From positions 1 through 20,656 of the IMG/VR virus record IMGVR_UViG_3300021405_000052: 20,656 nt of DNA, one strand, 5' to 3'. Position numbers and translations under genes: made by a program. Origin of the DNA: a virus. How positions within the stretch are numbered: the first letter of the stretch is position 1; each line of letters starts with the position of its first letter. Positions 6,815 through 19,984 of the stretch are shown piece after piece. The notes beneath the pieces are model-generated. The model had not been told where the DNA came from. It saw only the letters and a list, made by a program, of their open reading frames with translations, and ran no database searches.

Positions 6815-6835
6815 ATTGAACCTCATGAAAAAAAT

Positions 6836-6943
6836 GTGCCATTTGCTGGAGAGGTAGGAGTCGAACCTACAGTGGCCTTTTGGGCACGCCTGATTAACAG
6901 TCAGGTGGGGATACCAGTTTTCCTACACTCCAGCAAATGGCAC
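6836..6943 (-). repeat. 16-bp perfect inverted repeat enclosing tRNA-Asn, followed by T7
   Basis: The arms are 6836-6851 and 6928-6943. The inner 5 bp are the top of the tRNA-Asn acceptor stem and the outer 11 bp extend it without a break. On the minus strand the helix is followed by A and then seven T residues (6828-6834), like an intrinsic terminator. Confidence 0.85.
6846..6932 (-). tRNA. tRNA-Asn (anticodon GUU), extended stem and long variable region
   Basis: The anticodon stem CCTGA/TCAGG with loop CTGTTAA gives anticodon GTT. The T-arm is GTAGG/CCTAC with loop TTCGACT. The acceptor TGGAGTG/CTCTCCA, with U1-A72 and G73, fits Asn and carries one T-T mismatch. CCA is not encoded. The D-arm is poorly paired, with an A-C mismatch. 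The variable region is 18 nt and can form an arm (GTG/CAC and CC/GG around AAAA). A 16-bp inverted repeat encloses the gene. AATAAATA ends 16 nt upstream. Confidence 0.85.
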
Positions 6944-6948
6944 AGGAT

Positions 6949-7176: not shown

Positions 7177-7473
7177 TCAGTTCATGCCCAAGGCTGAGAG
7201 GTAGAGGTCGAGAATGGTCTCAATCTCGTTACGCTCGTCACGGTCAAGCTTGCGTAGTGCAACGACCTTCTTGATGATCTTCGTGTCGAAACCGTTCGCC
7301 TTGGCCTCTCCGTACACGTCCTTGATATCCTGGGCAATGCCAGTCTTCTCTTCCTCAAGACGCTCGATGCGTTCGATAAACGCCTTCAAGTGGCCTGCGT
7401 TCACTTCAGAAGTAGCAATGCGTTCCTCGGCAGTCCCGTCGAGGGGGGTCGTCACAACATTCACGTCACTCAT
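7177..7473 (-). CDS. gapR: GapR-family (DUF2312/UPF0335) nucleoid-associated protein
   Basis: This 98-residue protein matches the alphaproteobacterial GapR family closely. The core reads [60 protein letters not shown], then LYLSALGM. In Caulobacter, GapR forms a helical clamp around over-twisted, AT-rich DNA and supports gyrase and topoisomerase IV ahead of replication and transcription. The 25-residue N-terminal extension is poorly conserved, as usual. AAGGAG lies 8 nt before the ATG. It belongs to the same group of genes as UvsX. A phage copy could act on phage DNA topology or interfere with host GapR; the family also argues for an alphaproteobacterial host. Confidence 0.93.
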
Positions 7474-9036: not shown

Positions 9037-9840
9037 TCACTCCTTAAAATGGTCAGGATGAACGATCATCATATCCCCTAATGGGCCAGATGTCAAGTGT
9101 TTTCTTCCTGCTGTCAATGAAAAAGAAGCAGACACAAGAAGAATGATAGCAAGAGGGTCGGTAACGCCGACAATGAGAGTAATAATCCAGCGTACCGTAT
9201 TTTCCAACTGTGTGGCGTCTGCCTTTCCGTATACAAAGTCAGCCAGATATTGTAAAGGTCCAAAGTCCGCCTCCAAGAGGTTGTTCGAATTGGTCTTTTC
9301 GACTTCCTGCTTCTTTAGATCATCGAGCGTGGATCGATGTGCCATTTCCTCTTTCGTGAGGGCGTCACGAGTTTTTCGTTGAGCACTGAGTTGGGCAATC
9401 GCCTGTCCTGCACGGCCAGTTTCAGTAAGCTTAGCGATTGCTTTGTCAAGGTTTCCAACTTGGGTCTCGTAATCTGTGATGGTAGTTTGCTCACTCTTTT
9501 CTCTCTCTTTTATAATCTCGATGCCGCTGGTCTGTCCCGCATTCGAGACTTCTTGAGCGATATGAGCCTTCGACAGCAAGCCGAAGATACCCACACTGTT
9601 GAGCAACATAAGAGTCAGGACGGCGATAATCAAGTAGGTCTTAATCAAAAATGCTGCATCGCACCAATGTCGATGGAGGAAGGCTACGCCCGCGAGCTTA
9701 CCAATTTCCAGCACACCACCAAGCACAACAACTGACCAGAAAGCTCCTGGGAAGATTGCTGTTAACCCTGTTATAGAATAAAAGGCAGAGACGCTACTAA
9801 TCGACAACGCCGCTAGGAATAGGATCGTTGTGAGGAACAT
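9037..9840 (-). CDS. Integral membrane protein with periplasmic or cytoplasmic coiled coil
   Basis: This 267-residue protein has three N-terminal hydrophobic segments (about 1-20, 30-50 with SVVVLGGVLEIGKLAGVAFL, and 66-90 with IIAVLTLMLLNSVGIFGLL). A charged helical region of about 100 residues follows (EREKSEQTTITDYETQVGNL...LDDLKKQEVEK), likely a coiled coil. A final membrane segment is near 217-243 (WIITLIVGVTDPLAIILLVS). I recall proteins of this architecture in many T4-like marine phages, with no known function. GGAG precedes the ATG at 4 nt. A role at the host inner membrane is plausible but unproven. Confidence 0.82.
   Translation of the reverse strand: MFLTTILFLAALSISSVSAFYSITGLTAIFPGAFWSVVVLGGVLEIGKLAGVAFLHRHWCDAAFLIKTYLIIAVLTLMLLNSVGIFGLLSKAHIAQEVSNAGQTSGIEIIKEREKSEQTTITDYETQVGNLDKAIAKLTETGRAGQAIAQLSAQRKTRDALTKEEMAHRSTLDDLKKQEVEKTNSNNLLEADFGPLQYLADFVYGKADATQLENTVRWIITLIVGVTDPLAIILLVSASFSLTAGRKHLTSGPLGDMMIVHPDHFKE
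9068..9096 (-). promoter_or_regulatory. Sigma70-type promoter, TTGACA-17-TATGAT, for uvsX
   Basis: TTGACA (9091-9096) and TATGAT (9068-9073) on the minus strand are 17 bp apart, inside the last codons of the upstream membrane-protein gene. The predicted start near 9061 gives uvsX a short leader with AAGGAG. Confidence 0.7.
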
Positions 9841-11466: not shown

Positions 11467-11963
11467 TAGTCCTCCAAGTGGCCCCAATCAACGACGCCAG
11501 TTTCGAGATAAACACGAAGGGCTTTCGCAGCGTGTGCTGGCGAAATCTTGTCCATATCAGTATACTGATTGCCATCTGGCAGGATAGCATAGAAGAGCCT
11601 CGCCAGCGGAGCCGAGTCTTCATTATACCAGAATGAAGTTGTAAGGCCAAACGAAGAGTTTAACTCATATGGCCCCTTCTTTTCGCGTTTGCGATCACCA
11701 TTCATGTTCTTGCTGAATGCATAGACCGCACCAGCGATACAACAAACGGTGCCACAATGCTCTGGCTCGTAGTCGTCCTTGTCCTTGTATTCGATCACGG
11801 GGGAAATGAATTCATTCATATCGAAATGAAACCTTCCCTTGAGACCATCGAGTTGATGGGGAGCACCAAGCTCCAGCCACTTCAGAGCCTCAATGGCTCC
11901 TTCAGCATACTTGCGTGTCTTGAAGTCGGTAGTCTTTTGAACGTGTTCAACTGTGAGTTCCAT
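11466..11963 (-). CDS. Tandem paralogue A, CGTxCCIAGA-motif protein, 165 aa
   Basis: This is one of two adjacent related genes. Shared with its neighbour are FKTRKYAEGAIEALKWLELG, a Gly-rich APHQLDGLKG turn, the motif CGTVCCIAGAVYAFSKNMNG and a C-terminal segment (ISPAHAAKALRVYLETGVVD). The CGT..C.AG core resembles one I recall in unannotated bacterial and phage proteins; no function is known to me. The two cysteines after CGT could bind metal. AAGGAG lies 8 nt before the ATG, inside a leader sequence nearly identical to that of paralogue B. Confidence 0.85.
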   Translation of the reverse strand: MELTVEHVQKTTDFKTRKYAEGAIEALKWLELGAPHQLDGLKGRFHFDMNEFISPVIEYKDKDDYEPEHCGTVCCIAGAVYAFSKNMNGDRKREKKGPYELNSSFGLTTSFWYNEDSAPLARLFYAILPDGNQYTDMDKISPAHAAKALRVYLETGVVDWGHLED

Positions 11964-18765: not shown

Positions 18766-18847
18766 TGGCCCACACGACAGGAGTCGAACCTGCATCTTAC
18801 CTCCAGTTAGCTTTGGCTCCGTTCGTAGCGGAGGGGCGTACATGTGG
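18766..18847 (-). tRNA. tRNA-Arg (anticodon ACG), D-arm missing, long variable region
   Basis: The acceptor CCACATG/CGTGTGG pairs fully (one G-U), with G73 and encoded CCA. The anticodon stem CTCCG/CGGAG with loop CTACGAA gives ACG. The T-arm is GCAGG/CCTGT with TTCGACT. Between acceptor and anticodon stems only 7 nt (TACGCCC) are found, so no D-arm can form. The variable region is 23 nt and contains AGCTAACTGGAGG, which looks a little like a D-arm. Total length with CCA is 82 nt. An AATAAATA motif ends 9 nt upstream. It may be a true unusual tRNA or a decayed one. Confidence 0.72.
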
Positions 18848-18856
18848 ATGCTTGGT

Positions 18857-19443: not shown

Positions 19444-19518
19444 TGGTGCCCCCCCAAGGACTTGAACCCTGCTCTGCTGTTTACAGGACAGCTACGTCGC
19501 CATCTACGTTTGAGGGGC
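19444..19518 (-). tRNA. tRNA-Thr (anticodon UGU) with C33
   Basis: The acceptor GCCCCTC/GGGGGGC pairs fully with one G-U, with A73 and encoded CCA. The D-stem is ACGT/ACGT with loop AGATGGCG. The anticodon stem GCTGT/ACAGC has loop CCTGTAA, giving TGT. The variable region is 4 nt, and the T-arm CAGGG/CCTTG has TTCAAGT. The base 5' of the anticodon is C instead of the nearly universal U33. CCA is followed directly by eight T. AATAAATA ends 12 nt upstream. Confidence 0.88.
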
Positions 19519-19530
19519 GTGATAGCGAAT

Positions 19531-19538
19531 TATTTATT
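19531..19538 (-). promoter_or_regulatory. AATAAATA late-type promoter before tRNA-Thr
   Basis: The motif ends 12 nt before tRNA-Thr and begins 3 nt after the closing helix of the structured RNA at 19542-19716. Confidence 0.6.
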
Positions 19539-19541
19539 GCG

Positions 19542-19716
19542 GACTTTGTGAGAGACCCACGTAATGCTCGTGGAATGTTCGAAGGCGTTCGCTAGTCGGG
19601 GTAGTTGAAGCTTACCATGGAACTTCAGCGTTTTTAACTCACCGCTAGGTACTATCTTCTCAAGCCGCCCTTATCAGCGGTGCGTCTCTTAACTTTCGCC
19701 AGTCTCTCACAAAGTC
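19542..19716 (-). ncRNA. Structured RNA closed by a 15-bp helix, unknown family
   Basis: The ends 19542-19556 and 19702-19716 are perfectly complementary over 15 bp. Inside are three hairpins: 19640-19646/19676-19682 (7 bp), 19606-19613/19621-19627 (7 bp with one bulge around CCATGG) and 19557-19561/19569-19573 (5 bp). This gives a four-way-junction-like plan of about 175 nt with no convincing gene. It starts 8 nt after the CCA end of tRNA-Leu(CAA), so the two are probably cut from one transcript. It does not resemble tmRNA, RNase P RNA, 6S RNA or a hammerhead core. Confidence 0.72.
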
Positions 19717-19724
19717 TACAATTC

Positions 19725-19811
19725 TGGTGCCCATGATAGGACTCGAACCTACACGCCCTTGCGGGCAGAGCATTTTGAGTGCTCCGCGTCTACCAATTCC
19801 GCCACAAGGGC
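19725..19811 (-). tRNA. tRNA-Leu (anticodon CAA)
   Basis: The acceptor is GCCCTTG/CATGGGC with one T-T mismatch, A73 and encoded CCA. The anticodon stem GAGCA/TGCTC with loop CTCAAAA gives CAA. The class II variable arm is TGCCCGCAAGGGCGT-like, and the T-arm is GTAGG/CCTAT with TTCGAGT. It reads UUG. The first base directly follows a structured RNA, so it needs processing from a longer transcript. Confidence 0.95.
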
Positions 19812-19971
19812 ATGGACGAAGGATGGAGCATAGAGGCGTACTCTATGGTTTTGAAGCCCCCTCTCCTTACGGCAAGAGAACATCCACCCATATTAGCTGC
19901 GGGGGTAGGCACTGCCCCTACCATTAACGGCACAAAAAGCCGCTGTCCTATACTTACGACGACCCGCAAAA
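19812..19971 (-). ncRNA. Structured leader RNA ahead of tRNA-Leu(CAA), unknown family
   Basis: About 160 nt lie between an AATAAATA promoter and tRNA-Leu(CAA), with no gene. In transcript order there is a 6-bp helix 19963-19968/19898-19903, enclosing hairpins 19939-19942/19928-19931 and 19917-19922/19904-19909 (6 bp). A 5-bp helix 19881-19885/19821-19825 follows, enclosing a short stem near 19861-19878 and a perfect 7-bp hairpin 19841-19847/19829-19835 with a 5-nt loop. Two helical domains follow each other. The first begins at about the expected transcription start. Confidence 0.62.
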
Positions 19972-19976
19972 AAGAT

Positions 19977-19984
19977 TATTTATT
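19977..19984 (-). promoter_or_regulatory. AATAAATA late-type promoter before the structured leader
   Basis: The motif lies 9 nt before the first helix (19968) of the structured RNA that leads into tRNA-Leu(CAA). TAATAAATA is present in full, but here the TAA is not the stop of the upstream gene. Confidence 0.6.

Follow-up and report, generated by a model that had tools for sequence, protein, structure and literature searches.

Small structured RNAs have been described within or near phage tRNA clusters. T4 encodes RNAC and RNAD (rnaC and rnaD; species 1 and 2 RNA), small stable late RNAs of its tRNA cluster whose function is unknown (PMC3014915, PMC9697503), and the phage RNAs GOLLD and ROOL, likewise of unknown function, often lie near tRNA islands (PMC12286853). 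Here we analyze a helix-closed RNA element located between two tRNA genes of IMG/VR record IMGVR_UViG_3300021405_000052, a fragment of a T4-superfamily phage that was taken in its entirety as the window (20,656 bases). The element resembles the T4 RNAs in its location in a T4-superfamily tRNA cluster. In contrast to it, rnaC bears a T-arm and is held by an outer helix that is short and interrupted, a long closing helix is missing from rnaD, and neither matches the element by blastn or nhmmer. The kinship of the window RNA to RNAC and RNAD is thus one of setting and does not extend to sequence or to the closing helix, and the analogy with T4 species C and D drawn in the original prediction holds to that extent. 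GOLLD and ROOL are far larger and ornate, and the element has no Rfam covariance match to either.

Perfect complementarity over 15 base pairs (bp) joins the arms GACTTTGTGAGAGAC (19542-19556) and GTCTCTCACAAAGTC (19702-19716), exactly where the original prediction had placed a terminal helix. The repeat extends to 21 columns (19536-19556/19702-19722) with 90% complementarity, comprising 19 Watson-Crick pairs, one G-U pair and one mismatch. The predicted start 8 nucleotides (nt) after the CCA of tRNA-Leu (19725) is correct for the 15-bp core, and the extended helix of about 20 pairs comes as close as 2 nt. In the 206-nt spacer that separates tRNA-Leu from the tRNA-Thr-like gene, the top helix score is 45.5, compared with a maximum of 32.5 among 1000 dinucleotide shuffles, none of which came near. 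The minus strand folds with a minimum free energy of -60.1 kcal/mol (z -3.78), a value that 0 of 200 shuffles equaled. In the pairing ensemble the closing helix has a probability of about 1.0, followed by hairpin 1 with 0.8 and hairpins 2 and 3 with 0.4-0.6, so of the three internal hairpins originally proposed the first is likely and the other two are weakly defined. The slot is non-coding, with only very short minus-strand frames in the element, and the description of a compact helix-closed RNA in a discrete inter-tRNA slot is borne out. A 65-residue plus-strand frame entering the element was rejected as coding, as it also crosses the tRNA-Thr-like gene. A terminator was rejected because no U run follows the helix, and a group I intron or a piece of transfer-messenger RNA (tmRNA) for lack of an Rfam match. 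The coordinates are collected in Table 1.

Table 1. Positions of the helix-closed RNA, its parts and its neighbors in the window, and loci of the two families used for comparison.
Feature	Position	Strand	Basis
Helix-closed RNA, extended limits (187 nt)	19536..19722	-	fold, inverted repeat, spacer shuffles
Helix-closed RNA, 175-nt core as originally predicted	19542-19716	-	
Closing helix 5' arm, AUUGUA + GACUUUGUGAGAGAC	19702..19722	-	inverted repeat
Closing helix 3' arm, GUCUCUCACAAAGUC + CGCAAU	19536..19556	-	inverted repeat
Internal hairpin 1, GAC.CACCGCU / AGCGGUG.GUU	19636..19686	-	pair probability about 0.8
Internal hairpin 2, UGAAGUU / AGCUUCA	19606..19627	-	pair probability about 0.5
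Internal hairpin 3, CCACG AGCAUUA CGUGG, 5-bp stem, 7-nt loop	19557..19573	-	pair probability about 0.57
tRNA-Leu(CAA), immediately upstream of the helix-closed RNA	19725..19811	-	
tRNA-Thr(UGU)-like gene, immediately downstream	19447..19518	-	cmscan 43 bits; missed by ARAGORN
Late-promoter-like ATAAATAA, between the helix-closed RNA and the tRNA-Thr-like gene	19530..19537	-	motif count
Late-promoter-like ATAAATAA, upstream of tRNA-Leu; probable promoter of the RNA-bearing transcript	19976..19983	-	
Family A	L074, L087, L140-L146		
Family B	L084:8903-9109, L087:7739-7923		

The DNA polymerase gp43 of the window is 37% identical to that of Sinorhizobium phage phiN3. Its closest relative is locus L044 with a gp43 identity of 86%, the contig of which stops inside the tRNA adjoining the slot, just short of the element; the remaining IMG/VR relatives by gp43 are less than 40% identical. 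The element matches no Rfam family at gathering or lax thresholds, and blastn found no homologue in phages or in plasmids. Its paired arms were absent from the IMG/VR stretches around 42 viral contigs holding the exact 15-mer and from 85k genomes, and an inner 18-mer returned no homologue from IMG/VR. An IMG/VR search with the neighboring open reading frame gave no further relative spanning the element, probes at the tRNA-Arg-like and wcaG-like RNAs of the window returned only the known relative L044, and gp43 searches of genome contigs gave no relative with the element. With all homologue searches empty, selection on the RNA's own sequence is, from these data, not demonstrable. Because these searches failed, we examined the recurrence of the plan rather than of the sequence.

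We defined the class by plan, requiring of the closing helix a score of 36 or more (GC 3, AU 2, GU 0.5, mismatch -4), a span of 80-260 nt and one end no more than 10 nt from a tRNA gene end. The window RNA falls within it both by its helix (score 42.5-45.5, span 187) and by its position, the extended helix being 2 nt from the tRNA-Leu CCA. Across 84 T4-superfamily loci and the window, perfect repeats of at least 13 bases with 40-300-nt loops are concentrated beside tRNA genes. The scored search of gp43-selected loci, from which the window, L044 and high scores near tRNAs due to T-arm/T-arm complementarity were excluded, found seven helices near tRNAs (27,382 bases) compared with two elsewhere (907,009 bases), where 0.06 were expected near tRNAs and shuffles gave 0.00. 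The seven derive from five contigs, three of them from a single one, so the Poisson probability of about 5e-13 overstates their independence, yet the difference is pronounced. Such a helix is present in 3 of 14 inter-tRNA spacers of 60-330 nt, and in cultured phages in 3 of 17 (0.00 expected from shuffles). Aeromonas phage TSW001 carries several helix-closed inter-tRNA RNAs, one of which is kept at 87% in phiA8-29 with an inner hairpin that is different yet still paired, and Burkholderia phage BcepSauron carries one. These examples are unannotated at the matching places in the records viewed, and their sequences are unrelated to the window RNA. The original prediction knew of no family with this plan; the plan recurs between tRNA genes of other phages, in RNAs absent from Rfam.

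The recurrence bears on the possibility that the element is an ordinary spacer with a fortuitous inverted repeat. Perfect inverted repeats of at least 15 bases (within 400 nt) occurred somewhere in 4 of 200 shuffled windows, about 2%, and there is no homologue to reveal selection on the element's own sequence. Chance nevertheless strikes us as highly improbable given the placement 2 nt after the CCA, the extension to about 20 pairs, the failure of any of 1000 spacer shuffles to come close and the marked clustering of comparable helices beside the tRNAs of other phages. The window also contains a second helix-closed RNA of 109 nt (17187-17295, minus strand), whose 13-bp arms are perfect and whose fold has z -4.9. 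It represents an insertion of about 117 nt, which L044, the relative with 86% identity, lacks at this position.

Two of the loci, L074 and L087, have a common core with dissimilar arms, and a 20-base pattern from this core retrieved 11 IMG/VR stretches. Nine of them lie in tRNA clusters and represent seven distinct sequences, termed family A, while the matches in L145 and L147 were rejected as chance since they have neither a tRNA nor the helix. Members mostly start between about 2 nt before and 2 nt after the end of the upstream tRNA and mostly end within 10 nt of the next one; the exceptions are an upstream gap of 76 nt in L139/L087 and L146, for which no downstream tRNA was found. The neighbors vary (tRNAs Leu, Glu, Gln, Trp; Met, Leu, Lys, Asn) and the orientation is always that of the tRNAs. 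The consensus consists of a 17-23-bp closing helix and inner arms over 146-158 nt. In the 48-pair structure 98.8% of 336 pair cells are standard, and two-sided changes affect 24 of the 48 pairs, including 11 of the 19 that make up the closing helix. With the partner slid by 1-3 columns, this falls to 2-5 pairs; as the seven sequences form a few related groups, the changes per sequence are partly non-independent, and the slid control retains this relatedness. Because two-sided changes far exceed the slid control, the closing helix acts as RNA, its structure being maintained while its sequence changes. The inner sequence and inner arms are better conserved than the sequence of the closing helix.

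Like the window RNA, family A combines a closing helix with inner arms, abuts tRNAs and lies on the transcribed strand. The helix is 17-23 bp in family A and 15 bp (20 when extended) in the window RNA, and the inner sequences are unrelated. The family A covariance model (R1) has no match to the element on its strand, with at most 1.2 bits nearby compared with 162-172 bits for members. In family B (L084 and L087) the closing helix carries two compensatory changes, and the RNA starts at or in the tRNA CCA. This family shares with the window RNA a long closing helix, which in family B begins at the tRNA CCA. Its model (R2) scores the element at 5.0 bits (E 0.16) and its two source sequences at 215-243 bits. 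The k-mers that the window RNA shares with family A (ACTGGCGA) and family B (TGTGAGAGA) were rejected as signs of kinship for being too short. Judged by these comparisons, the window RNA has plan and place in common with both families and no demonstrable descent.

Perfect terminal repeats could also mark a mobile DNA element with terminal inverted repeats, similar to a miniature inverted-repeat transposable element, that landed between the tRNA genes by chance. The 109-nt insertion described above, missing from the closest relative, is in line with this. At 19542/19716, however, no target-site duplication is seen; the window holds no further copy of the element, and no second arm was found around the 42 viral contigs with the 15-mer or in bacterial genomes. 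Moreover, the arms of family A co-vary with conserved pairing around a conserved core, unlike a transposon end recognized by sequence and opposite to what repeats read by a transposase would do. We therefore disfavor a mobile element as very improbable.

On balance we lean towards a structured small RNA that is cut from a late tRNA transcript, sealed by its helix and active in trans. The minus strand holds all annotated tRNAs and recognizable genes of the window as well as most of the late-promoter-like ATAAATAA boxes, and ATAAATAW boxes occur 8 times compared with 1.15 expected. Leftward transcription would start at the ATAAATAA box at 19976, cross tRNA-Leu(CAA) and continue into the element, and we infer that the RNA is expressed. 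Because the ends of the element fit tRNA ends, release by tRNA processing seems plausible: maturation of tRNA-Leu would free the 5' side, whereas release of the 3' side would take 3' trimming together with RNase P acting at the next tRNA. With nearly no single-stranded ends, the sealed helix may block exonucleases and 5'-end-dependent decay so that the RNA accumulates. The two or three inner hairpins would be the working part, and a role in trans is suggested because the core of family A is conserved more than its arm sequence. As a guess, the RNA could bind a protein, acting as a decoy or as a mimic of an antitoxin to counter a host defence directed at RNA or tRNA. The case for defence is circumstantial. 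Phage tRNA clusters are commonly viewed as countering tRNA-directed defences, which lends this role slight support. So does an abiF RNA (50 bits; 9625-9661) located 10 nt after tRNA-Met in L074, a T4-superfamily phage contig carrying family A, since an RNA antitoxin is established for the abiF family (PMC12373285).

Several observations weigh against a trans-acting RNA. The plus strand folds similarly (z -4.23), and as the two strands fold equally well, folding energy cannot pick the strand. Hairpins 2 and 3 are poorly defined in the ensemble. The 3' end of the element overlaps the late-promoter-like ATAAATAA at 19530-19537 (minus strand), which would be a difficulty if helix formation is required during use of that promoter. 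The collections searched yielded no homologue and hence no covariation for this element, which shares only its plan with families A and B and is not recognized by their models. Finally, nothing ties the RNA to any particular defence.

Part of the evidence would also suit a spacer acting only in cis, whose helix prevents misfolding of the neighboring tRNAs or guides where the polycistronic tRNA transcript is cut, by RNase III for instance, and whose released piece has no task. The ends of the helices fall together with those of tRNAs, in some cases (L142, L084, L087) so that the helix takes in the tRNA CCA, and some tRNAs themselves lie within such helices (tRNA-Asn of the window and of L141, tRNA-Asp of L149). 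Such a spacer would not need the inner sequence and arms that family A conserves above its closing-helix sequence, nor does it sit well with family A adjoining different tRNAs or with the 11 of 14 and 14 of 17 inter-tRNA spacers that have no such helix. We consider a pure cis function rather unlikely.

Retron msr-msd RNA is organized by a perfect helix that pairs its ends around inner hairpins. The window RNA has the same layout, as do Y RNAs, and the tRNA cluster of Rhizobium phage TM30 includes a TROVE (Ro60-like) protein, so the element could be a relative of a known RNA (retron-like with an a1/a2 helix, Y RNA, tmRNA, group I intron, GOLLD or ROOL) that has diverged beyond the reach of Rfam. 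We give this a slim chance. No Rfam family, Y RNA and YrlA included, matches at a useful score, and GOLLD and ROOL are several times longer. The reverse transcriptase domain PF00078 is absent from the 20.7-kb record and from 27.9 kb of the relative, both of which are fragments. Neither a reverse transcriptase nor a TROVE domain was found in the window, in the contig of L044 or in the family A contigs tested, several of which, like the window record, are fragments.

Compared with the open-access literature, the window RNA is possibly a variant among the small structured RNAs of phage tRNA clusters, and helix-closed RNAs are possibly a class of their own. A wider proposal, which we put forward tentatively and with more doubt than conviction, is an overlooked class of helix-sealed small RNAs in the tRNA clusters of several virus families. 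These RNAs would be released by tRNA processing, perhaps be in part remodeled tRNAs with a stretched acceptor stem, and serve against RNA-directed defences of the host, as decoys or by mimicking antitoxins; among many members of unrelated sequence, the window RNA would be one and T4 RNAC a short-helix cousin. Structured, end-sealed RNAs occupy inter-tRNA slots of many phages, and family A, absent from Rfam, is supported by covariation. The cultured examples (Aeromonas TSW001 and phiA8-29, Burkholderia BcepSauron) open the question to laboratory testing, so that roles of phage tRNA-cluster contents beyond tRNAs become testable. They also call for caution, as tRNA-cluster spacers left blank by annotation can be genes.

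A continuum between helix-closed RNAs and tRNAs is possible, although the evidence is suggestive only. Leader-trailer pairing stretches the acceptor stems of tRNA-Asn in the window and in L141 and of tRNA-Asp in L149 to 17-20 pairs, and some closed RNAs retain a T-arm (L100; TSW001 at 7251). Hairpin 3 of the window RNA is T-arm-like by position, directly adjoining the 3' closing arm as a T-arm does the acceptor stem, but it lacks a T-loop sequence and pairs with a probability of only about 0.57. The 88-nt tRNA-Asn of the window (6835-6944, minus strand) has its acceptor stem stretched to a perfect 17-bp helix and no encoded CCA, and a similar tRNA-Asn with 20 pairs occurs in another phage (L141, reverse complement, 11840-11951).

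Further RNAs were noted in the window and in other phage contigs. Between tRNA-Leu(CAA) and a tRNA-Lys(UUU)-like cloverleaf (19898-19969, minus strand, z -2.7), in which the loop GGCAGUG replaces the T-loop, lies a two-hairpin helix-closed RNA (19814-19890, minus strand) with a weak resemblance to tRNA-Sec (18 bits). A tRNA-Arg(ACG)-like RNA at about 18763-18850 (minus strand; 361-458 in L044) has no recognizable D-arm and was missed by ARAGORN; nearly 100 nt are identical to L044 while the flanks have diverged. At 17060-17171 (minus strand; about 1925-2020 in L044) we found a wcaG-like RNA with a 45-nt stretch identical between the two. Its RF01761 score of 24.5 bits lies below the curated cut-off of 42; as a distant wcaG RNA it would be one from outside the cyanophages. 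The contig of L044 also carries a permuted tmRNA gene of alphaproteobacterial type (L055, 6000-6384; RF04321 111 bits, RF01849 103 bits), and an alphaproteobacterial host would fit for this reason. In Rhizobium phage RHph_TM30 (L151, 3190-5954) the TROVE gene lies within the tRNA cluster and adjoins a series of diverged tRNA-like units in which the motif GTTGCGA...TTCG recurs; these units are possibly phage Y RNAs.
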